Source: Gammaproteobacteria bacterium
GTDB lineage: Bacteria > Pseudomonadota > Gammaproteobacteria > UBA9214
Direction: 5' to 3'
DNA: 60,741 nucleotides
NCBI GenBank assembly: GCA_029860045.1
Contig: JAOUBY010000005.1
Span: 1-60,741 of the forward strand
This document shows, piece after piece, positions 23,781-38,602 of the stretch (position 1 is the stretch's first letter; each line of letters starts with the position of its first letter). The notes beneath the pieces are model-generated. The model did not search any database. It saw nothing but the letters and a program-made list of their open reading frames with translations, and was not told the DNA's origin. The translations under genes and the position numbers were made by a program.

Positions 23781-25451
23781 ATGAGCGTGAAGCGCATAAC
23801 AAGGTACGGGGTGGCACTGCTCGCCTCGTGCATGGGCCTGGCAACGACAACCGGTATTGCGTTTGCCAAAAAAGAGGCATTTGTTCCCCTTAACGAAGCA
23901 GAATTCGAACAGGCAAAAAGCATGTATTTCCAGCGCTGTGCCGGCTGCCATGGTGTTCTGCGCAAGGGCGCGACCGGTAAAAGCCTGTTACCACAGCCAA
24001 ACAAAGCCAAAAAGTCCAAGGGCACTCTCAAACTGGGGACGAAACGGCTTACCAAGATCATCAAGCTGGGCACCGAAGGTGGCATGAACAACTTCGATGA
24101 TGTCTTCTCGGACAAGCAAATCGACCTGCTGGCCCGGTATATCCAGATGGAACCGCCGATTCCGCCTGAAATGCCTCTTTCACTAATGAAGGAACGTCAC
24201 AAGGTATACATCGAACCGAAAGATTACCCGAAGAAGCCGCTGCATGGCCGCAACTGGGAGAATTTCTTCGTGGTCATCGAGCGTGATGCCGGCAAGATTG
24301 CCATTATCGATGGTGACAAGCATGAAATTGTTGACCATATTGACACCGGCTATGCGGTACACGTTATCAAGGCGACAGAACATCACGACAAGGAAAAACC
24401 GGTCGGCGGTGTTGCCGGCCGCTTCTGGTATACCCAGGGCCGTGATGGCAAGATGACCAAGATCGATCTGTGGCAAAAGCCTGGCAGTATGCTGGTGGCT
24501 GAGGCGCAGATGGCCTACGATGCACGCGACGTTGCCGTATCCGGTGATGGCAAGTATGTCATCGGTGGCGGGTACTGGCCCCCACACTTCGTAATTCTCG
24601 ACGCAATTACCATGGAGCCACTGAAAGTAGTTTCAACCCGTGGCATCAATATCGATGGTGACTACGTCAACGAGTCTCGCGTGGCCGCGATCTACACCAC
24701 GCCGGGCCAGTCTTCCTTCTGGGTTGCCATGAAGGAACTGGGGCAGATGTGGCAGGTCAACTACACCGACCTCGACAACCTCGCGATCAAACAGGTCAAT
24801 TCGGCGAAGTTCCTGCACGATGGATTCTTCGACCCGACCGGCCGTTACTTCCAGATAGCCGCCAACGCATCGAACAAGATGGTTATCGTCGACTCCAACA
24901 CCGGTAAGCTGGAAGCAATGATCGACACCGCCAAGTTGCCGCACCCGGGTCCGGGCGCCAACTGGAACGACCCGCAATGCGGACCTGTAGGTGGCACCAC
25001 CCACCTCGGCGAAGGCAAGGTCACCGTCTGGGGTAACGATCCCAAGGGTCACAAGAAAGAGGCCTGGAAGATCTGCTACGAAGTTGAAACGGACGGTGCC
25101 GGAGTATTTATCCGTACCCATCCGACATCTGACTTTGTCTGGGCAGACCAGACCAAGCACCCGGAACCTGTAATCCAGCAGAGCGTCAAGGTCATTGACA
25201 AGAAGACACGGAAAGTTGTCAAAACCATTCGGGTGACCGAGGAAGAAGGCAAGGCCGCAGTGCACATGGAGTTCAACAAGGATGGCTCAGAGGTGTGGGT
25301 TTCGGTCTGGAACCGCAAGGACAACAAGAACCCCACTGGTGAAATCGTGGTCTACGATGCCAAGACTCTCAAGGAGAAGAAACGCATCAAGGGCCTGACG
25401 ACACCAACTGGCAAGTTCAATGTTTACAATCGTACCAACCACGTAACGTGA
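23781..25451 (+). CDS. nirS: Cytochrome cd1 nitrite reductase
   Basis: N-terminal CAGCHGVLRKGATGKSLLP c domain; d1 propeller NWENFFVVIERDAGKIAIIDGDKHEIVDHIDTGYAVH...RFWYTQGRDGKMTKIDLW...HPGPGANW. Confidence 0.96.
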   Translation: MSVKRITRYGVALLASCMGLATTTGIAFAKKEAFVPLNEAEFEQAKSMYFQRCAGCHGVLRKGATGKSLLPQPNKAKKSKGTLKLGTKRLTKIIKLGTEGGMNNFDDVFSDKQIDLLARYIQMEPPIPPEMPLSLMKERHKVYIEPKDYPKKPLHGRNWENFFVVIERDAGKIAIIDGDKHEIVDHIDTGYAVHVIKATEHHDKEKPVGGVAGRFWYTQGRDGKMTKIDLWQKPGSMLVAEAQMAYDARDVAVSGDGKYVIGGGYWPPHFVILDAITMEPLKVVSTRGINIDGDYVNESRVAAIYTTPGQSSFWVAMKELGQMWQVNYTDLDNLAIKQVNSAKFLHDGFFDPTGRYFQIAANASNKMVIVDSNTGKLEAMIDTAKLPHPGPGANWNDPQCGPVGGTTHLGEGKVTVWGNDPKGHKKEAWKICYEVETDGAGVFIRTHPTSDFVWADQTKHPEPVIQQSVKVIDKKTRKVVKTIRVTEEEGKAAVHMEFNKDGSEVWVSVWNRKDNKNPTGEIVVYDAKTLKEKKRIKGLTTPTGKFNVYNRTNHVT

Positions 25452-25776: not shown

Positions 25777-27561
25777 ATGGCCAGTCAGAAACCCATCTTC
25801 GGCTTGATGTCGCGCAAGGTTCTGTTCGGAACCACTCTCGCTGCGGCCCTGTTTTTCATGATAGTCGGTGTCATCTTCTGGGGCGGCTTCAATACGGTTA
25901 TGGAGGCCACCAACACCCTGTCATTCTGTATTTCCTGTCATGAAATGGAAGAAAACGTTTATCAGGAATACACAAAAACCATTCACTACACCAACCGCAG
26001 TGGTGTACGCGCCACCTGCTCCGATTGTCACGTACCTGATCCATGGGTGCACAAGGTTGTGCGTAAAATCCAGGCCAGTAACGAGGTAGTACATAAAGTA
26101 CTGGGTTCGATTAATACCCCGGAGAAGTTCGATAAAAAACGCCTTAAACTGGCAAAAAATGTCTGGCGTGCAATGAAAACGACGGACTCGCGCGAATGCC
26201 GCAACTGTCATGATTTCGATTCCATGAATCCGGAAGATCAGAAAAAACGTTCGCGCAAGCAGCATATCAACGGCATGGAAGCAGGCAATACCTGTATCGA
26301 CTGCCACAAGGGGATAGCGCATACAAAGGTGCACGACCAGCTGACTGATGAAGAATTGACGGCACTGGAACAGCCGCACCCGGAGAACAAGCGCCCGATA
26401 CCGCCACAGTGGCAGGCGTTTATCGATGCCCAGGCCGCCGGCAAGGCCCCTGCAAAAGAAGAGGAAGAAGTCGAGGAAGAGGTCGATGAAACGACCTCCA
26501 CGGCTGTGGAACAGGCCCCTGAAGCCACAACAGAAAGCGCAGCTGCTGCTCCAGCCGCTGCCGCCGCAGCAGCTGCGTCTACCGGCCCTGCAGCGAACAT
26601 CGACTGGTCAGGCATCGAGCCAAGGGAAGTTGTCCTGTTCTACCCCGGCCAGGCTTCAATGGAATGGACCCTGAAAGGCAGTGACCATGGTGGTAAACGT
26701 GCCTTTGTAACGGGTGACCGTTGCTTTGAGTGTCACGAAGATGAGGAAGTTGATATCGGTGATCTGATCATATCCGGTGACAAGGCCGAAGCTACGCCTA
26801 TTCCCGGCAAGCGTGGCAGCATCGCGGTCAACATTCAGGCGGCGCACGACGCCAGTAACCTGTACATGCGCTTCCAGTGGGAAGACGGTGAGCACGCGCC
26901 CATTCCGTTTGCCGACGGTGGCAAGATGGATCCGGACAACCCGGTCAAGCTGGCCATCATGCTGGCCACAGACAATGAAGATGATCCGAAAGTGGAATAT
27001 GCAGAACGTGCAGGTTGCTGGCAGTCCTGTCACCACGATGCCAATTACATGCCTCACCAGCCTGACAAGGCCACCCTGGCGGACAGTCCGCTGGCTGCGC
27101 GACTCGATCTGAGCATGGGCTTCACCAAGTACCTCAAAGAAAGTCGCACTTCAATCGAGATTGAAGGCAAGGAAGGCAAGATGCGCGGTGGCTGGGGCAA
27201 TCTGAAAGATGAAGCCGCGATCCGGGCAGCGCTGGAGAACGGTTCGTTCATGGACCTGCTGCGCTACAAGTCCGGCACCGGTGAATCCGAAGATGGTTAT
27301 ATCCTGGCCGAGCGCGTCATGACCGGCGGTCAGGGGGTGAATTTCACGGGCAGCCTCAAGGATGGTGTATGGACGGTTGAAATGACCCGCAAGCTGACCT
27401 CGGACAAGCCCGGCGACATCAGCATGAGCACTGATGAGTGGTATAACATTGGTTTCGCGATTCACGATGATTACAGCAACAGCCGCTTCCATCATGTGTC
27501 ACTGGGGCTGAAGCTGGGCTTTGATGATGAAGATGCAGAAATCAATGCAATAGGGAAGTAA
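25777..27561 (+). CDS. NapC/NirT-type tetraheme cytochrome fused to an ethylbenzene dehydrogenase-like heme-binding domain
   Basis: N-terminal TM; CISCH, CSDCH, CRNCH, CIDCH; Ala/Glu-rich linker; C-terminal part with CFECH, CX3CH (CWQSCH), VNIQAAHDASNLYMRFQWED and WTVEMTRKLTSDKPGDISMSTDEWYNIGFAIHDD. Confidence 0.85.
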   Translation: MASQKPIFGLMSRKVLFGTTLAAALFFMIVGVIFWGGFNTVMEATNTLSFCISCHEMEENVYQEYTKTIHYTNRSGVRATCSDCHVPDPWVHKVVRKIQASNEVVHKVLGSINTPEKFDKKRLKLAKNVWRAMKTTDSRECRNCHDFDSMNPEDQKKRSRKQHINGMEAGNTCIDCHKGIAHTKVHDQLTDEELTALEQPHPENKRPIPPQWQAFIDAQAAGKAPAKEEEEVEEEVDETTSTAVEQAPEATTESAAAAPAAAAAAAASTGPAANIDWSGIEPREVVLFYPGQASMEWTLKGSDHGGKRAFVTGDRCFECHEDEEVDIGDLIISGDKAEATPIPGKRGSIAVNIQAAHDASNLYMRFQWEDGEHAPIPFADGGKMDPDNPVKLAIMLATDNEDDPKVEYAERAGCWQSCHHDANYMPHQPDKATLADSPLAARLDLSMGFTKYLKESRTSIEIEGKEGKMRGGWGNLKDEAAIRAALENGSFMDLLRYKSGTGESEDGYILAERVMTGGQGVNFTGSLKDGVWTVEMTRKLTSDKPGDISMSTDEWYNIGFAIHDDYSNSRFHHVSLGLKLGFDDEDAEINAIGK

Positions 27562-28011: not shown

Positions 28012-29577
28012 ATGCCATACAAAGAAATTTTGTCAAAAGCTGTATTGTTGGGCCTTGCGCTCGCAATAACATCTGTGACTTTCGCGGATGATGTTGCAAA
28101 ACACTATAAAGACAACTGTGCCGTTTGCCACAACGAACATCGCCTGGGCGGCATAGGACCTGCGCTGCTGCCTGGCAATCTTAAACGTCTGCGCAAAAAA
28201 ACCGCTGTTGATGTCATCTCAAATGGTCGCGCTGCTACCCAGATGCCCGCCTTTGCAGAAAAGCTGTCAGAAACAGACATCAAGGCACTGGTTGAATACA
28301 TTTATACGCCGCCTGAAGAAATGCCTGTCTGGGGTCTGGACAAAATAAGTGCCAGTCACATCATCCACAATCATGAATCCGAACTGCCGAACAAGCCGGT
28401 GTTCAAGGTCGATGATCTGTTGAACATGTTCCTGGTCGTGGAACTCGGCGACCACCACGTCACCCTGCTCGATGGGGACCGTATGGAGCCCATACACAGG
28501 TTCAAATCACGCTTTGCCTTGCACGGAGGCCCAAAATATTCATCATCAGGACGTTTTGTCTATTTCGCCTCGCGTGACGGCTGGATCAGCAAGTACGATA
28601 TTTACAATCTAAAACTGGTAGCCGAGATCCGCGCCGGCATCAACACCCGCAACCTCGCGGTATCTGCTGATGGCCGTTATGTGATGGTGGCAAATTACCT
28701 GCCGCATTCACTGGTACTTCTGGATGCGTCCGACCTGAGACCGATCAAGCTGTACGATGTCAGGGACAGCAATGGAAATACTTCCCGCGTCAGTGCCGTT
28801 TATACAGCACCACCGCGCAACAGTTTTATCGCGGCACTCAAGGACATCCAGGAAGTCTGGGAAATATCATACGATAATGACCCGCCAATCGGTTTCGACG
28901 GCTGGGTGCACGATTACCGCACCGATTCCGGCGAAAACGTCGAACCTGAGCCTTTCCCGGTTCGGAAAATCAAGGTTAATGATTACATCGACGATTTCTT
29001 CTTCGACCAGGAGTACGTATCCCTGATCGGGGCCTCTCGCGAAGGCAAGGGACAAGTGGTCGATATGGATATCGGCAGGGTCATCGTCACAGACCTGGAA
29101 CTGCCGGGTATGCCGCACCTTGGCTCGGGAATAACCTGGGAATACAAGGGTCGGCCTGTACTGGCAACGCCGAACCTGAAAAAAGGCGATGTCAGCGTAA
29201 TCGATATGGAAACATGGAAGGCCATCAAACATATTGAAACCCTTGGCCCCGGCTTTTTCATGCGCAGTCATGAAAACACACCTTACGCCTGGGTCGATGT
29301 ATTCTTTGGCCCCAACAAGGATGCGATGCACGTGATTGACAAGAGTACGCTGGAAATCGTCAAGACGCTGCGCCCCGTACCGGGCAAAACAGCGGCACAC
29401 ATCGAGTTCACCCGTGATGGGAAATATGCCCTGCTCAGCATCTGGGACCCGGACGGCGCCGTGATTGTGTACGACGCGGCAACACTGGAGGAAGTAAAGC
29501 GCATACCGATGAACAAACCGTCGGGCAAATACAATGTATACAACAAGACCCGCTATTCAGCGGGGACAAGCCACTGA
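28012..29577 (+). CDS. nirN: NirN-like cytochrome c / d1-type propeller protein (NirS paralogue)
   Basis: CAVCHNEHRLGGIGPALLPGNLKRLRKK; d1 propeller with MFLVVELGDHHVTLLDGDRMEPIHRFKSRFALHGGPKYSSSGRFVYFASRDGWISKYDIY. Confidence 0.75.
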   Translation: MPYKEILSKAVLLGLALAITSVTFADDVAKHYKDNCAVCHNEHRLGGIGPALLPGNLKRLRKKTAVDVISNGRAATQMPAFAEKLSETDIKALVEYIYTPPEEMPVWGLDKISASHIIHNHESELPNKPVFKVDDLLNMFLVVELGDHHVTLLDGDRMEPIHRFKSRFALHGGPKYSSSGRFVYFASRDGWISKYDIYNLKLVAEIRAGINTRNLAVSADGRYVMVANYLPHSLVLLDASDLRPIKLYDVRDSNGNTSRVSAVYTAPPRNSFIAALKDIQEVWEISYDNDPPIGFDGWVHDYRTDSGENVEPEPFPVRKIKVNDYIDDFFFDQEYVSLIGASREGKGQVVDMDIGRVIVTDLELPGMPHLGSGITWEYKGRPVLATPNLKKGDVSVIDMETWKAIKHIETLGPGFFMRSHENTPYAWVDVFFGPNKDAMHVIDKSTLEIVKTLRPVPGKTAAHIEFTRDGKYALLSIWDPDGAVIVYDAATLEEVKRIPMNKPSGKYNVYNKTRYSAGTSH

Positions 29578-30567
29578 TTATTTAATGTACTGTTCCCTGT
29601 TTTTGTCCGTCAACGCCTTCAGGAAACTTGTAATATCACTCACCTGCTGATCATCGAGGTCTTCGTCCAGTTGCAGCTTTCCCATCTGGCGCACGGCTTC
29701 ATCTAGCGTTTTTATTTTTCCGTCATGGAAATAGGGCGCCGTCAGTGCCACGTTACGAAGTGGTGCCACCTTGAAAACCATGCGGTCACTCTCATCCCTG
29801 GTGAGCGCGTACATTCCAGGGTCAGTCTGGTTTTCGTAGGGGTTTTCCCTGCCAAGCGGTTCATACGCATCGCCACCGAGCAGTACTCCATAGTGACATT
29901 CCTTGCAGTCAACCTTGATAAAGGTTTTCAGGCCCCGTTGTTCTGCCTCGCTTAATGCATCGGCCTCGCCATTCATGAAATCATCGAAACGACCTGGCGT
30001 GATCAGCGTTCGCTCGAAGGCCGCGATGGCCTCTGCAATATTCTGGTAGGTAACGGCCGGCTCATCACCAGGGAATGCCTCGGCGAAAGCATCCCGGTAT
30101 TCTGCAATACTCCGTATCTTCTCTTCCACCGCCTGTTCGTCAGGCATTCCCATTTCGATCGGATTAAGAATCGGCGCCTTGGCCTGCTCGACCAGGTCCT
30201 CGGCACGGCCGTCCCAGAACTGGCTGTCCTGCCAGCCCGCATTCAGTACCGTTGGGCTGTTACGGGTCCCCTGCTCGCCTCTGGCGCCGGGTGAGGCATG
30301 CAGGTTATCGACGCCGGCGAAACCATCCTCGAGACGGTGACAGGATGCACAGGACTGGGTGTCATTGATAGACAGGCGTTTCTCAAAATAGAGCTGCTTG
30401 CCCAGTGCAATACGCTCCGGCTTGTCATTTTCTGAACCCGGCATGGCGCCCGGCAATGGTGAAAAAAAGCGGTTAGCGCGGCGGATCAGCAGGTCGGCAT
30501 CATCAGCGAATACAGTAGTTGCCGCCAGTAACAGGAAGGTTATAACGATCCAGGCTATGTGTTTCAT
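29578..30567 (-). CDS. Di-heme cytochrome c peroxidase / MauG family
   Basis: LGKQLYFEKRLSINDTQSCASCHRLEDGFAG; CKECHYG; FKVAPLRNVALTAPYFHDGKIKTLDEAVRQMG. Confidence 0.92.
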   Translation of the reverse strand: MKHIAWIVITFLLLAATTVFADDADLLIRRANRFFSPLPGAMPGSENDKPERIALGKQLYFEKRLSINDTQSCASCHRLEDGFAGVDNLHASPGARGEQGTRNSPTVLNAGWQDSQFWDGRAEDLVEQAKAPILNPIEMGMPDEQAVEEKIRSIAEYRDAFAEAFPGDEPAVTYQNIAEAIAAFERTLITPGRFDDFMNGEADALSEAEQRGLKTFIKVDCKECHYGVLLGGDAYEPLGRENPYENQTDPGMYALTRDESDRMVFKVAPLRNVALTAPYFHDGKIKTLDEAVRQMGKLQLDEDLDDQQVSDITSFLKALTDKNREQYIK

Positions 30568-30611: not shown

Positions 30612-31178
30612 CTACTGCACACCCTTGCTGATCAGGAAGCTGCTGTATTGCTTGTCGGTACCGTTGATATGGTCGATCAGCCAGCTCTTTAAGTAATTGA
30701 AGCCATGGCGCATGGCCAGGTCATGGTCTTCCTCATACTCGGCCAGCACTGCATCGACCTCTCTAATCATCGCATTATGCTGGGCCTTGTGAGCCTCAAA
30801 ATCAGGATAGCCATTCTCCTCCATCAACCCTTCCTCGTAGGAGAAATGTGTCTTGGTATAGTCGACCAGTTCAGCCAGTGCCTCCCGTTCAAATTCCTCA
30901 CCGGTGGAATAATCCACGGCAGTCGCCAGCTGGTTGATCAGATTGATGAGTTTTCTGTGCTGCTGATCGATGGAATCGATGCCAACACTGTACTCATCCC
31001 TCCATTCAATATAGGGTTTTGACGACAGCTTTCTGTAAATAAATGGAATAGCCACCAGGATGGCCACCAGGGCCCAGGTCAGGGGACTGGTGGGTCCGGC
31101 CATGAACCCCAGGATCACTGCTGTGATGAGACTCAGCATGAGCAGCGCAAGCCCGAACATACCCAGATTTTTATTCAT
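30612..31178 (-). CDS. Membrane-anchored bacteriohemerythrin
   Basis: Two N-terminal TM helices; WRDEYSVGIDSIDQQHRKLINLINQL...HFSYEEGLMEENGYPDFEAHKAQHNAMIREVDAV...WLIDHINGTDKQYSSFL. Confidence 0.88.
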   Translation of the reverse strand: MNKNLGMFGLALLMLSLITAVILGFMAGPTSPLTWALVAILVAIPFIYRKLSSKPYIEWRDEYSVGIDSIDQQHRKLINLINQLATAVDYSTGEEFEREALAELVDYTKTHFSYEEGLMEENGYPDFEAHKAQHNAMIREVDAVLAEYEEDHDLAMRHGFNYLKSWLIDHINGTDKQYSSFLISKGVQ

Positions 31179-32599: not shown

Positions 32600-34276
32600 A
32601 TGTCAGACTTCAATCATCGCGTTTGCCCGGCCACCGGGTTACGTATTCACAAGTCCGCTGAAAATCTAATCAAGGCAAATGCCGTTGTAGCCATTGTATT
32701 CCTTGCCGTGGGTGGTTTATTCGGCCTGATGGTCGCACTGACCCGCTGGCCCGGCGTGCACCTGCTGCCGGCCGACTGGTTCTATCTGGTACTCACCGGT
32801 CACGGTCTGGATGTGCTGCTGGTGTGGATTATCTTTTTCGAGATGGCGGTACTGTATTTTGCCTCGGCAATATTGCTCAATTCGCGACTGGCGGGGCCAC
32901 GCTGGGGCTGGGCCGCGTTTGCACTCATGCTGGTCGGCGCCATCATGACAAATGTTGCTGTTTTACAAGGCAATTCCAGTGTCATGTTCACCTCCTACGT
33001 GCCGATGCAGGCCGCGCCACATTTCTACCTGGGGCTGGTGCTGTTCGCGGTCGGTGCCCTGATCGGCTGTTTCGTGTTCTTCGGCACGCTGGTCGTCGCC
33101 AAGCAGGAAAAGACCTACAAGGGCTCGATACCACTGGTCACCTTTGGCGCCATGACCGCAGCCATCATTGCGGTATTTACTATTGCTTCGGGTGCAATCA
33201 TCCTGGTCCCGACCTTCCTGTGGTCGGTAGGCATCATCGGAAATATTGATACCCTGATGTACAAGACCATCTGGTGGGCCATGGGTCATTCCTCCCAGCA
33301 GATCAATGTTGCAGCCCATGTCTCGCTCTGGTATCTGATAGCAGCCGTTGTACTGGGTTCCAAACCGCTGTCCGAAAAAGTCAGCCGCATGGCATTCCTG
33401 ATGTATATCCTGTTCCTGCAACTTGCCAGTGCGCATCACCTGCTGGTTGAGCCGGGCATCAGTTCCTCGTGGAAAATCTTCAACACCAGTTATGCCATGT
33501 ACCTCGCGGTACTCGGCAGCATGATCCATGGCATGTCTATACCGGGTGCAATCGAGTCCGCCCAGCGTGCCCGTGGTTTCACCAACGGCCTGTTCGAGTG
33601 GTTACGCAAGGCACCGTGGGGTAACCCGGCCTTCTCCGGCATGTTCATGTCGCTGGTTATGTTCGGCTTCCTCGGTGGCATCACCGGCGTGGTGTTGGGC
33701 ACCGAACAGATCAACCTGATCATGCACAACACCCTGTATGTCCCGGGTCATTTCCATGCAACCGTGGTAGCCGGCACCACCCTGACCTTCATGGCGGCTA
33801 CCTACCTGATTGTTCCACTGATCTTTCAACGTGAGTTGATCATGAAGGGCCTGGCCAGGTGGCAACCCTACCTGTTCGGTCTCGGAGTGATGGGTATCTC
33901 GGTGTTCATGATGGGTGCCGGTACGCTGGGTGTACCCAGGCGTGTCTGGGACATCACCGGAGCTGACGCCCTGATCAAGTATGACTACTCCGGCGCAGCC
34001 TACCTGATGATGGGCCTGAACGGCATCAGCGCGATTATGGCAGCCCTTGGTGGCCTACTCTTTGTCATCATCATTGTCGGCTCAGTACTGTTTGGCAAAC
34101 GCACCGGTGACAAGCCGCTGGAAGGCATGACCATGACCACCGCCGCCAATTATGGCAGTGATGAACATCCCAAGATTCCAGGGACTGTCGTGCTGGTCGC
34201 GATATTCTTCACGGCCTTTATCCTTTACTACTTCGTCAACTGGAAGTACCTGGCCGAAGTATGGCCACTGCGCTAA
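32600..34276 (+). CDS. B-family heme-copper oxidase subunit I, NOR-like (Gln at cross-linked Tyr position)
   Basis: WWAMGHSSQQINVAAH aligns by eye to ba3 WWTGHPIVYFWLLP; SAHHLLVEPGISSSWKIFN (CuB HH); HNTLYVPGHFHATVVAGTTLTFMA (heme ligands). Confidence 0.85.
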   Translation: MSDFNHRVCPATGLRIHKSAENLIKANAVVAIVFLAVGGLFGLMVALTRWPGVHLLPADWFYLVLTGHGLDVLLVWIIFFEMAVLYFASAILLNSRLAGPRWGWAAFALMLVGAIMTNVAVLQGNSSVMFTSYVPMQAAPHFYLGLVLFAVGALIGCFVFFGTLVVAKQEKTYKGSIPLVTFGAMTAAIIAVFTIASGAIILVPTFLWSVGIIGNIDTLMYKTIWWAMGHSSQQINVAAHVSLWYLIAAVVLGSKPLSEKVSRMAFLMYILFLQLASAHHLLVEPGISSSWKIFNTSYAMYLAVLGSMIHGMSIPGAIESAQRARGFTNGLFEWLRKAPWGNPAFSGMFMSLVMFGFLGGITGVVLGTEQINLIMHNTLYVPGHFHATVVAGTTLTFMAATYLIVPLIFQRELIMKGLARWQPYLFGLGVMGISVFMMGAGTLGVPRRVWDITGADALIKYDYSGAAYLMMGLNGISAIMAALGGLLFVIIIVGSVLFGKRTGDKPLEGMTMTTAANYGSDEHPKIPGTVVLVAIFFTAFILYYFVNWKYLAEVWPLR

Positions 34277-35163
34277 TCAGCAATGGAAATGGCATCCCGG
34301 TGAAGGAGACCCTGGCACTCGTCTACTCGGTGTTCAAGGTCCGCATCGGGACTGCCATCATGCTGACCGCGCTGGCGGGCATCGCCGTGGCGCCCGGGCC
34401 GGCACCGGAGGCATGGCAGATTGCAGTGCTTGCCCTTGCCGTACTGCTGTCCTCGGCCAGTGCCGGCGCCTTCAACATGTACATGGAACGTGACCTCGAT
34501 GCGCGCATGAACCGTACCCGCAACCGGCCGTTTGTAACCGGCCGGTTTGTGGCAAACGGTTACTGGCTATCCGGGATTGTCCTGTTGCTGGTGGTTGCCA
34601 TCGCGGCGGCGGCACTCGCCACCAACGCCATTGCTGCGTTCTACGTGTTCCTGGGCGCCTTTGTCTATGGCGTGGTGTACACCGTCTGGCTGAAACGGCG
34701 CACCTGGATGAATATTGTCGTTGGCGGGCTGGCCGGCAGCTTTGCCATTCTTGCCGGGGCCGCAGCAGTGGACCCCGGACTGGCGCCGGCGCCCCTGATA
34801 CTGGCAGTCGTACTGTTCCTGTGGACCCCGCCCCACTTCTGGAGCCTGGCCTTCAAGTACAAGGATGACTACGCAGCGGCCGGCGTACCCATGTTACCGG
34901 TTGTGGTGAATGACAAGACAGCTGCGAACATCATCCTTGGTCATACTGTCCTGCTGGTTGCACTGTCACTGGCACCCGTCATGTATGGCATGGGCTGGAT
35001 TTACCTGCTGGGCGCCATTACCGGTGGCGGCTGGTTTGTCCGCACCAGCATTGGCCTGGCACGCAACCCGTCAGCAAAGACCGCGATGACCAATTTTCAT
35101 GCCTCGCTGTTACAACTGAGCCTGCTGCTGGTCGGTGCGATCCTTGATGCGTGGCTGGTCTAG
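34261..35163 (+). CDS. ctaB: Protoheme IX farnesyltransferase (heme O synthase)
   Basis: SAGAFNMYMERDLDARMNRTRNRPFVTGR; LFLWTPPHFWSLAFKYKDDYAAAGVPMLPVV. Confidence 0.93.
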   Translation: MATALISNGNGIPVKETLALVYSVFKVRIGTAIMLTALAGIAVAPGPAPEAWQIAVLALAVLLSSASAGAFNMYMERDLDARMNRTRNRPFVTGRFVANGYWLSGIVLLLVVAIAAAALATNAIAAFYVFLGAFVYGVVYTVWLKRRTWMNIVVGGLAGSFAILAGAAAVDPGLAPAPLILAVVLFLWTPPHFWSLAFKYKDDYAAAGVPMLPVVVNDKTAANIILGHTVLLVALSLAPVMYGMGWIYLLGAITGGGWFVRTSIGLARNPSAKTAMTNFHASLLQLSLLLVGAILDAWLV

Positions 35164-35292
35164 CATCGTGTCTGCATACACCACTGCGTTACTTTAGTCG
35201 AAACCTAACCAAACACCGGTTTAAGGTAGCATAGTCATGCCAGCATGACATGCCCGCCAGATGATTGTCGAGTCCGATTGCAATACTTACCA

Positions 35293-36123
35293 ATGCGTTC
35301 ATATCAGAAAATATTAAGCCTTGTTCTCACGGTCCTGCTAATAACCGGCGCAGCCTCTGCTGCTGCACAGGAAGCTGCGGCAACTTATGACGAGAAACAG
35401 TCACTCGCGCGCAGCCAGGCCGTGCAGGGCCATACCGTTGGTGATTACACCTTCCTCGATGGCAACGGAAATTCAGTATCGCTGGGCGCGTTGCGTGGCA
35501 AGCCGGTTATCATCAGCCTGATCTACACCAGCTGCTACCATGTCTGCCCGACTGTAACCACCAACCTGGCAAAGGTTATCGGAATCGCACGGGATGCCCT
35601 GGGCAATGACAGCTTCTCGGTGCTGACCATCGGCTTTGACACGGCAGCTGATACGCCGGATCGGATGCGACTGTTCGCCAAACAGAGAAATATTGATCTC
35701 GATAACTGGCATTTTGTCAGCGTAGATACCGACACCCTGCAACGGCTGTCCGATGATGTCGGCTTCAGCTATTTCAGCACCCCCAAGGGTTTTGACCACA
35801 TGATCCAGGCCACCCTGCTTGATGGCGAGGGCAAGGTCTATCGACAGATCTACGGCATGGCCCCGGAACCACCGGCACTGGTCGAGCCGCTCAAGGAACT
35901 GCTGTACGGCAAACAGGTGGCCGCCACACCGATCGAGGGCATGCTGAACAACATCAAGCTGTTCTGTGTCGTGTACGACCCGACCACCGGGATGTACCGT
36001 TTTGACTATTCGATTTTCATCGGCCTGGCCATCGGGCTACTGACGCTGGGTGGCACTGCCTGGTTCATTGTCCGCGCCTGGCGCAGGTCCGCTCCGGGCG
36101 GTCCGGCACGGGGGAACTCATGA
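35293..36123 (+). CDS. SCO1/SenC family copper chaperone with C-terminal TM helix
   Basis: GKPVIISLIYTSCYHVCPTVTTNLAKVIG (CxxxC); FDHMIQATLLDGEGKVYRQIYG. Confidence 0.9.
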   Translation: MRSYQKILSLVLTVLLITGAASAAAQEAAATYDEKQSLARSQAVQGHTVGDYTFLDGNGNSVSLGALRGKPVIISLIYTSCYHVCPTVTTNLAKVIGIARDALGNDSFSVLTIGFDTAADTPDRMRLFAKQRNIDLDNWHFVSVDTDTLQRLSDDVGFSYFSTPKGFDHMIQATLLDGEGKVYRQIYGMAPEPPALVEPLKELLYGKQVAATPIEGMLNNIKLFCVVYDPTTGMYRFDYSIFIGLAIGLLTLGGTAWFIVRAWRRSAPGGPARGNS

Positions 36124-37703
36124 CTGGCCTGCGCACCGCTGCCCGATCGGTATTTGAATTCGCCGAAAAACTGTTTGACCGGGCCTTTGGTCCTGACTGG
36201 AACCCGCTCTACCACCTGGGCACACTGGGCTGGTTTTTTTACTGGATTGTGATTGTCAGTGGCATCTATCTCTATATCTTTTTTGACACCGGGATCACCC
36301 AGGCCTACGAATCACTGGAATACATCACCAATGTGCAGTGGTATGCCGGGGGGGTCATGCGCAGCCTGCATCGCTATGCCTCGGATGCACTGATCATTGT
36401 CATGATGTTGCACCTGGTGCGTGAATTCGTCATGGACCGTTACCGCGGCGCACGCTGGTTCAGCTGGTTTACCGGGGTGCCATTGATATGGCTGGTATTT
36501 GCCTGCGGCATCAGCGGCTACTGGATGGTATGGGACGTGCTCGCTCAATACATCGCCATTGCCTCGACCGAATGGCTCGATTCACTGGGCATCTTCGGCC
36601 AGTCTATTGCACGCAACTTCCTGAATGAAGAAACATTGAGCGGCCGCTTCTTCACACTCATGGTATTCATTCACATTGCCGTTCCGCTATTCATGCTGCT
36701 GGTCATGTGGATACACATCCAGCGACAGAGAAATGCCCGGGTCAATCCACCCGTCGGCCTGGCTGTCGGCACACTGGGCATGCTACTGGTACTTTCCCTC
36801 ATCGAGCCAGCAGTCAGTCAGGCACCCGCCAACCTGAATATCGCACCGGCCGTTATCGACTTTGACTGGTTCTACCTGGCAGGCTATCCGTTACTGGACT
36901 GGCTGCCCGGCCTGGTTGTCTGGGCACTGGGTGGCGGGGCTACACTGTTACTGCTGGTGATGCCCTGGCTGCCGCCCGGACGTCGCCGCACGGCCGCACA
37001 GGTTGACCTCGACAACTGCAATGGCTGTGGCCGCTGTGTGGAAGACTGCCCGTTCAGCGCCGTGGACCTGCAACAACGTACCGACGGGGCCGCCTTTAGC
37101 GAGGAAGCGATTGTCAGCAATAATCTGTGCACCGGCTGCGGCATCTGTGTCGGCGCCTGCCCCACTTCAACACCCTTCCGGCGCAGCGGCAAACTGGTGC
37201 CCGGGATCAACCTGCCCGACACGGACCTGCACACCCTGCGCGAACAGACGCTGGCCGCGACATCGCCACTGAGCGGGATTGGACGCGTCATGGTATACGG
37301 CTGCGAGCACGGACCGGACCTGGAGAAACTGCGGGACGCAGACACGGCCGTATTGAAACTGCCGTGTATTGCCATGCTGCCGCCCTCTTTTATCGATTTT
37401 CTGATTTCACGCAAGCATGTCGATGGCGTTTTACTGACCGGTTGCGCTGAAGGGGACTGTCACTACCGGCTCGGCCAGCAGTGGGCAGGACAGCGTCTGG
37501 CCGGAGAGCGCGATCCGTACCTGCGTGCGCGGGTGCCGCGCGAGCGGGTCGACACTTTCTGGGCCGGCCTCACCAGCAACAGGAAACTCAGGGACGAGCT
37601 GAAAAACTTCCGCACCCGCCTGTCAGTACTGCCCGCTATCGAGCGCAACAAACGCCAGCCCGTGATCAAACGAGTTATCGAGGGTGACGAAAGCCATGAA
37701 TAG
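36120..37703 (+). CDS. Cytochrome b (b6-like) - 2x[4Fe-4S] ferredoxin - MvhD/FlpD-like fusion protein
   Basis: TM region with SLHRYASDALIIVMMLHLVREFV and FFTLMVFIHIAVPLFMLLVMWIHI; CNGCGRCVEDCP and CTGCGICVGACP; C-terminal MVYGCEHGPDL...VLKLPCIAMLPPSFIDFLISRKHVDGVLLTGCAEGDCHYRLG (MvhD/FlpD signature). Confidence 0.85.
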   Translation: MTGLRTAARSVFEFAEKLFDRAFGPDWNPLYHLGTLGWFFYWIVIVSGIYLYIFFDTGITQAYESLEYITNVQWYAGGVMRSLHRYASDALIIVMMLHLVREFVMDRYRGARWFSWFTGVPLIWLVFACGISGYWMVWDVLAQYIAIASTEWLDSLGIFGQSIARNFLNEETLSGRFFTLMVFIHIAVPLFMLLVMWIHIQRQRNARVNPPVGLAVGTLGMLLVLSLIEPAVSQAPANLNIAPAVIDFDWFYLAGYPLLDWLPGLVVWALGGGATLLLLVMPWLPPGRRRTAAQVDLDNCNGCGRCVEDCPFSAVDLQQRTDGAAFSEEAIVSNNLCTGCGICVGACPTSTPFRRSGKLVPGINLPDTDLHTLREQTLAATSPLSGIGRVMVYGCEHGPDLEKLRDADTAVLKLPCIAMLPPSFIDFLISRKHVDGVLLTGCAEGDCHYRLGQQWAGQRLAGERDPYLRARVPRERVDTFWAGLTSNRKLRDELKNFRTRLSVLPAIERNKRQPVIKRVIEGDESHE

Positions 37704-38199
37704 GGTACTCGCCTACATCGGCCAGGCTATCGCCTACACGCTGTTTGCTTTTGTGATCGGCTATCTAGCCACCTCGCCTCCCTACACCCACCTGGAGCCG
37801 GGCATGGCAGTCATCAAGCTGAGCTTCAGTCACGCAGGTGAGCACATCAAGGAATGCCGGCGGTTAACCCAGGAGGAACTGAATGCGCTGCCACCCAATA
37901 TGCGCAGGCCAACAGACTGCCCACGCGAACGGGTACCGCTACTGGTCGAACTTGAACTGGATGGTGAAACCATTTACCACGAGCTGCTACCCCCCTCCGG
38001 CCTGGCCAGTGACGGTGCCTCAACGGCATATAAAAAATTCCCGATAAGCGCGGGGGAACACCGTATCGTGGCAAGATTGCGTGAAAGAAGGGAGACCGAC
38101 GGTTTTGATTATGAGAAAGCGGGAGAGATCAGCCTGGCACCCCAACAGAATTTTGTAATTGATTTTCGACCCGAACTGGGCGGCTTCCTGTTCCTATGA
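37696..38199 (+). CDS. Hypothetical single-TM protein at the end of the NOR-like operon
   Basis: MNRVLAYIGQAIAYTLFAFVIGYLATSPPYTHLEPGMAVIKLSFSHAGEHIKECRRL...; overlaps upstream CDS. Confidence 0.75.
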   Translation: MNRVLAYIGQAIAYTLFAFVIGYLATSPPYTHLEPGMAVIKLSFSHAGEHIKECRRLTQEELNALPPNMRRPTDCPRERVPLLVELELDGETIYHELLPPSGLASDGASTAYKKFPISAGEHRIVARLRERRETDGFDYEKAGEISLAPQQNFVIDFRPELGGFLFL

Positions 38200-38206
38200 G
38201 GTTTCC

Positions 38207-38602
38207 ATGTCGATGATTGAATGGAAAGATGAATTCTCGGTCGGCATCCCCGATGTTGACCACGAACACCAACAGCTTATCGGGCTGATCAACGAACTGC
38301 ACAACGCCATGTCAGGCAAAAACGCCGCCATGACCGTGACAGATTTTCTCGGCGAGATTCACGCGCATGTCGCAGCACACTTCGCGCTGGAAGAAAAAAT
38401 AATGCGCGAGAAGAAATATGACCAGTACGAAGACCACAAGCGAGACCACGAACGTCTGCTCGATGAAATCAGTGACATCATGGATGACTACGAAGAAAAC
38501 GCCTTTTACAGTGACGAGGTGTTTACAAGCACCCTCGAACACTGGTTTAGTGATCACTTCAAGACCAGGGACGCACGCCTGCATAAGCACCTGGGTGTAT
38601 AA
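38207..38602 (+). CDS. Bacteriohemerythrin
   Basis: MSMIEWKDEFSVGIPDVDHEHQQLIGLINELHNAM...HFALEEKIMREKKYDQYEDHKRDHERLLDEI...WFSDHFKTRDARLHKHL. Confidence 0.93.
   Translation: MSMIEWKDEFSVGIPDVDHEHQQLIGLINELHNAMSGKNAAMTVTDFLGEIHAHVAAHFALEEKIMREKKYDQYEDHKRDHERLLDEISDIMDDYEENAFYSDEVFTSTLEHWFSDHFKTRDARLHKHLGV

Follow-up and report, generated by a model that had tools for sequence, protein, structure and literature searches.

Several described systems bear on the locus studied here. The closest is eNOR, marked in its subunit I by a Gln at the position of the Tyr of O2 reductases (criterion from PMC8756737) and resembling the present locus in this Gln, in its CuA subunit and in a heme O synthase encoded nearby; the eNOR loci of Thermus and Thermomicrobium are devoid of the fusion gene described below, which is additional here. 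The product of eNOR is N2O; the enzyme is readily mistaken for an oxidase in annotation, and its electron supply is not settled in the literature searched. The Rieske/cytochrome b complexes of Kuenenia stuttgartiensis, for which NAD(P)H formation by bifurcation has been proposed (PMC12954380), likewise link a cytochrome b with an Fe-S/flavin module of the cytoplasm and belong to the context of nitrogen oxides, but they consist of separate subunits with Rieske proteins and multiheme cytochromes c, whereas our fusion is one polypeptide with a CuA heme-copper partner and no Rieske protein in its operon. CcoG/FixG, a Cu(II) reductase encoded behind the cbb3 genes (PMC7558416), is similar in domain layout and in its place behind heme-copper structural genes; it is distinguished from the fusion by the latter's four-His cytochrome b fold, FlpD domain, different periplasmic domain family and lack of a recognised Cu site. 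In QmoABC and HdrA2 modules, a Fer4-FlpD unit links membrane/quinone chemistry to cytoplasmic enzymes, and the C-terminal part of HdrA2 matches residues 292-507 of the fusion (66 bits, far below the cut-off of 1100), but the fusion has no HdrA-type flavin domain and its operon no HdrA, APS reductase or hydrogenase. The methanogen MvhD (solved structures 5odc and 9sw2), whose chains match the FlpD domain with their cysteines aligned, is a soluble small subunit, whereas here FlpD is fused to a cytochrome b. Finally, the cytochrome b of bc1/b6f complexes has the same four His for two hemes b and the same fold of helices A-F.

We analysed a stretch of 60,741 nucleotides (contig JAOUBY010000005.1 of the gammaproteobacterial assembly GCA_029860045.1), hereafter the window. 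Its operon encodes, in this order, a CuA subunit, subunit I, a heme O synthase, SCO, the fusion, a protein that we call p171 and a hemerythrin (Table 1).

Table 1 Genes of the operon and parts of the fusion protein, with their positions in the window
Feature	Coordinates	Strand	Basis
CuA subunit II, 177 aa	32054..32587	+	Weak CoxB/NosZ-type CuA matches; conserved at the head of the cluster
eNOR catalytic subunit I, 558 aa, B-family related	32600..34276	+	PF00115; GHSSQQ
Heme O synthase CyoE/CtaB	34261..35163	+	TIGR01473, 263 bits over a cut-off of 210
SCO/SenC copper chaperone, membrane anchored	35245..36123	+	PF02630; sequence
Fusion protein, cytochrome b + 2x[4Fe-4S] + FlpD, 527 aa	36120..37703	+	ORF, Pfam, AF2 model
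Six-helix cytochrome b part, residues 28-283	36201..36968	+	Foldseek to bc1 cytochrome b; invariant columns
Two [4Fe-4S] motifs, residues 294-350	36999..37169	+	Fer4 families; invariant in 55 aligned members
FlpD/MvhD domain, residues 390-503	37287..37628	+	PF02662; sequence aligns with MvhD chains of known structure
p171, one transmembrane helix + periplasmic beta-sandwich, two conserved Cys	37696..38199	+	Follows 47 of 49 fusion loci, fused forms counted
Bacteriohemerythrin	38207..38602	+	NF033749, 105.9 bits over a cut-off of 84; downstream in 24 of 49 loci

The joining of a cytochrome b, two [4Fe-4S] motifs and a C-terminal MvhD/FlpD domain in one polypeptide, proposed in the initial annotation, is real. 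The motifs quoted there are present, and Pfam matches to Cytochrome_B (PF00033, residues 28-200, E 5.9e-17), Fer4 (PF00037, two stretches, E 9.5e-12) and FlpD (PF02662, residues 409-502, 42.6 bits for a cut-off of 22.3) each exceed the curated cut-off; PF02662 reaches 72.6 bits in the relative L025. The start of the gene and the stop of SCO share the sequence ATGA (36120-36123), an overlap that had also been noted. Four heme-ligand His (H84, H98, H185 and H199) form two bis-His heme sites, and the clusters are liganded by C300, C303, C306 and C310 and by C337, C340, C343 and C347. As all four His and all eight Cys are kept in the 55 aligned family members, the fusion is not a chance product. 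The FlpD cysteines (C395, C416, C442 and C447) are found in the window protein and in all aligned Pseudomonadota members; they are gone in four of the five eNOR-linked Chloroflexota members compared, in which the [4Fe-4S] ligands are never lost, so that the FlpD cluster is not essential everywhere.

An AlphaFold2 model built on the alignment of the 55 members (mean pLDDT 90.3, pTM 0.87) displays six long membrane helices (residues 29-54, 74-104, 110-135, 175-199, 212-228 and 264-283). In a Foldseek search it aligned with the cytochrome b of bc1 at about 20 % identity (E 2.4e-08, some 285 columns), which implies that the membrane part exceeds b6 and takes in the E-F loop of the quinol-oxidation site; the earlier description as b6-like falls short of the actual extent, i.e. 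six helices. At the position of the PEWY Glu, D249 is invariant in the 55 sequences (xDWFY replaces PEWY in most members), and D139 in the cd loop is invariant as well. We infer that the periplasmic side carries a quinone-site-like pocket with D139 and D249. The loops contain 12 Lys/Arg on the cytoplasmic side and one on the periplasmic side (positive-inside count), a distribution that predicts a cytoplasmic location for the Fe-S part and for FlpD. Judged from its sequence, the fusion is a membrane protein joining a two-heme cytochrome b to cytoplasmic iron-sulfur domains, and as a kind it falls among the cytochrome b/Fe-S membrane oxidoreductases.

The next gene product, p171, is the predicted partner of the cytochrome b module. 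It is fused to the C-terminus of the fusion in two loci (L074 and L078), and the C-terminal domain of the Chloroflexota fusions is homologous to it (hhalign, probability 99.4 %). Assignments of p171 to FixG_C/CcoG or to FixH were rejected, with hhalign probabilities under 2 % (0.7-1.4 % for CcoG). Given the cytoplasmic C-terminus of the fusion and the membrane helix at the start of p171, the beta domain of p171 is predicted to be periplasmic. No recognisable cofactor was found in p171, and its two Cys are missing from the Chloroflexota members read. In three loci (L133-L135), a p171-like domain is followed by a CXXCH cytochrome c domain, beside a Tyr-type O2 reductase. The unit is made up of a cytoplasmic redox head, a two-heme membrane core and a periplasmic cap, sometimes with a cytochrome c.

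Subunit I of the window has Thermus ba3 oxidase as its best PDB relatives. Its helix VI motif, GHSSQQ, holds a Gln where O2 reductases have the cross-linked Tyr, and the same Gln is found in every Pseudomonadota cluster member read; the CuA subunit II gene adjoins subunit I in these clusters. This motif makes the operon an eNOR cluster, so that the term NOR-like used at first was right and can be sharpened. By this sequence criterion the CuA heme-copper enzyme of the window is an eNOR, predicted to reduce NO to N2O. Elsewhere, a second heme-copper-like gene, a divergent one of roughly 455-480 aa (helix VI GGGH or similar, HH pair of helix VII missing), often lies downstream of p171 (L016:9592-11016, L067, L068, L069, L072, L073, L089, L094, L096, L097 and L074:11100-12455); it is absent from the window.

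The fusion was found far beyond this contig. Gene order is kept in loci of Gamma-, Alpha-, Beta- and Deltaproteobacteria and on a Defluviimonas plasmid. Within the sequence available around 49 fusion loci, SCO lies upstream in 43, subunit I is present in 39 and CuA in 34. Among 369 gammaproteobacterial genomes, the fusion occurs in 34, eNOR in 34 (excluding a 35th, weak match carrying Tyr in G381, which was therefore not retained as an eNOR genome lacking the fusion) and both in 33. The two apparent exceptions, G021 (eNOR only) and G236 (fusion only), were dismissed as their loci are cut by contig ends. The genes are about 16 kb apart on one contig in G178 and on different contigs in G392. The fusion was also detected in 34 of 399 genomes of a phylum-wide sample and in 10 of 301 genomes of a Chloroflexi sample. 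Chloroflexota fusions form two clades, accompanied in one case by eNOR (Gln, GHPAQQ) and in the other by an O2 reductase of B type (Tyr, GHPLVY); both clades are represented, by one fusion each, in three genomes. The fusion is therefore a family in at least two phyla (Pseudomonadota and Chloroflexota) and not a singular event. Occurrence apart from oxidase/NOR operons, which would have spoken against the initial annotation, is not what we observed, the gene being nearly always with eNOR. In eNOR-linked Chloroflexota loci (L136:4781-7916; equivalents in L137, L140 and L142), the gene is preceded by those of a DsbD_2-type membrane protein and of a large protein that by eye resembles a P-type ATPase for copper, an arrangement shared with maturation operons of cbb3.

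Distances between fusions and between subunits I are correlated (r = 0.91, 41 pairs, 0 of 2000 permutations; 0.85 within Pseudomonadota), a correlation that includes shared host ancestry and alone is no proof of contact. The Gln-containing eNOR of Thermus and Thermomicrobium plasmids have no fusion gene beside them; the module hence belongs to part of the eNOR family, and eNOR can probably work without it. The enzyme of Haloarcula, considered as a further eNOR lacking the fusion, was rejected: it has the Tyr of an O2 reductase and is uninformative. No description of the fusion or of the electron route was found in the literature searched, which did not cover the primary eNOR characterisation paper; the novelty claimed earlier stands in this respect only, the gene itself being widespread. 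As a companion of eNOR in practically every gammaproteobacterial eNOR genome sampled, the fusion is a strong candidate for its missing partner, or for a maturation factor, and it provides a marker for this eNOR lineage.

The cytoplasmic head can be exchanged. On the same cytochrome b, we found a Fer2 + FAD_binding_6 + NAD_binding_1 head in L026 and L076 (Pfam) and in L028 (sequence likeness), and a flavodoxin + FAD_binding_1 + NAD_binding_1 head in L096; a further cytochrome b copy, in L075, lies on a contig that ends before the head. The copies of L026, L096 and L075 sit inside an eNOR cluster, that of L076 belongs to genome G104, with eNOR elsewhere, and that of L028 to G392, with eNOR on another contig. 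The flavin reductase types swapped in normally oxidise NAD(P)H. With such heads (i.e. Fe-S/FlpD, ferredoxin-NAD reductase and diflavin reductase) exchangeable on a single cytochrome b, the direction of flow becomes directly accessible to experiment. The cytochrome b module was observed twice in one genome, frequently as a tandem pair, for L026, L028, L075, L096 and L076 and in G814, G878, G903 and G954; the second copy has an NAD(P)H-flavin head in some genomes, and elsewhere both copies are long Fer4/FlpD-type matches.

The interpretation that we tentatively prefer, while allowing that it may well be wrong, is that the fusion and p171 form a module dedicated to carrying electrons across the membrane for a B-family heme-copper reductase with CuA, mostly eNOR. 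A cytoplasmic reductant, i.e. a ferredoxin or flavoprotein docking on the Fer4/FlpD part, or directly NAD(P)H in the paralogues with a flavin-type head, would reduce the [4Fe-4S] clusters. Electrons would then pass through heme bH and heme bL to the quinone-like pocket (D139/D249) under p171, and would reach CuA either directly or through a carrier (quinone or cytochrome c); the invariant Asp pair speaks for a quinone in the periplasmic pocket. NO (or O2) reduction would in this way be fed by a route by-passing complex bc1. The predicted redox ligands lie in line across the membrane, with a topology given by charge and a gene linkage to the CuA reductase. Flow from cytoplasm to periplasm is suggested by the NAD(P)H-oxidising types of the swapped heads, by the fused cytochrome c, a natural partner of CuA, and by its being downhill in both redox potential and membrane potential. 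The link between the membrane and cytoplasmic Fe-S/FlpD carriers tied to an NO/O2 reductase that had been put forward at the outset is supported. Several observations count against this conduit. No electron donor gene is present in the operon, the eNOR of Thermus and Thermomicrobium do without an adjacent fusion gene, CyoE and SCO next to the fusion serve maturation, and the Chloroflexota members cited above no longer have the FlpD cysteines. Moreover, a conventional cytochrome b gene stands beside a Rieske gene elsewhere in the genome, so that eNOR could be fed conventionally.

These flanking maturation genes, together with the CcoG-like layout (membrane part, two [4Fe-4S], helix and periplasmic beta domain), make the strongest rival a reductase acting outside turnover as the eNOR counterpart of CcoG/FixG, which would reduce copper, a thiol or SCO for CuA/CuB assembly. 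The fusion is placed behind the structural genes, among CyoE and SCO (with CtaA in L074 and DsbD_2 in Chloroflexota), and a heme-b membrane reductase of Bordetella supports heme-copper enzymes and overlaps partly with ccoG (PMC13038864). We nevertheless regard such a role as rather unlikely, since profile comparison relates p171 to the Chloroflexota C-terminal domain and not to FixG_C/CcoG or FixH, no Cys, Met or His is invariant for copper beyond the heme and cluster ligands (the p171 Cys being absent in the Chloroflexota read), and CcoG is already encoded in the genome. A function beyond assembly is also suggested by the cytochrome c fused in some members and by the invariant Asp of the quinone-site-like pocket.

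Less probable again is a bifurcating quinol oxidase, a possibility raised in the initial annotation, in which quinol in the periplasmic pocket would give one electron to CuA/eNOR and the other, via bL and bH, to the [4Fe-4S]/FlpD part or to NAD(P)+. The conserved E-F loop, the invariant Asp at the PEWY position and the Fe-S clusters coming next after the cytochrome b on the cytoplasmic side are in its favour, and the Kuenenia complexes with their NAD(P) oxidoreductase are the closest published concept. Bifurcation specifically was not borne out: the Pfam scan detected no Rieske gene in the operon, the genome's Rieske genes being located on other contigs, the operon encodes no equivalent one-electron gate to a high-potential acceptor, p171 having no recognisable cofactor, and the thermodynamics of ubiquinol are poor. 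With ubiquinol at about +90 mV and an acceptor at +250 to +350 mV, the second electron stays far above -320 mV, and only menaquinol would suffice. No diflavin reductase of the L096 type is known to run towards NADP+. A broader form, i.e. a modular membrane bifurcase with interchangeable heads, whose Rieske-free cytochrome b would split or merge electrons, with a CuA NO/O2 reductase on the periplasmic branch and low-potential carriers (Fe-S or NAD(P)) on the cytoplasmic one, seems to us more doubtful still.

The least probable reading, a redox-loop or reverse-flow enzyme uncoupled from eNOR turnover and linked to the operon by shared regulation under NO (either reducing quinone from a cytoplasmic Fe-S/flavin donor or reducing a cytoplasmic acceptor with quinol, as in Qmo/Nar), draws on a QmoB/HdrA-like protein with an FlpD domain elsewhere in the genome, which indicates that Fe-S/FlpD parts serve related chemistry here, but near-perfect linkage to, and co-divergence with, one heme-copper type exceed the needs of shared regulation, and the operon has no cytoplasmic partner gene. 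As to the partners first envisaged for the FlpD domain, the fusion has no gene for a hydrogenase, a formate dehydrogenase or a heterodisulfide reductase beside it: in the operon genes covered by the profile scans, neither HdrA nor either of the first two enzymes was detected. The QmoB/HdrA-like protein, the genome's only other FlpD protein, is encoded on contig 96 with HdrB/HdrC-like neighbours and was rejected as the partner by its location.

The strand opposite to the eNOR operon encodes, upstream of it, a second hemerythrin-like protein (30612-31178, -) and a probable cytochrome c peroxidase (29578-30567, -), both recognised by eye. Further upstream, one ORF (25777-27561, +) combines a NapC/NirT-type multiheme N-terminus with an ethylbenzene-dehydrogenase-type heme b domain (PF03264 + PF09459); it lies, with a cupredoxin-like ORF, between two cytochrome c-d1 proteins (23781-25451 and 28012-29577). 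The latter (+, cytochrome c + d1) matches the NCBIfam model 'clade III lactonase-type nitrous-oxide reductase' at 56 bits for a cut-off of 700, a match that probably reflects the shared beta-propeller only.
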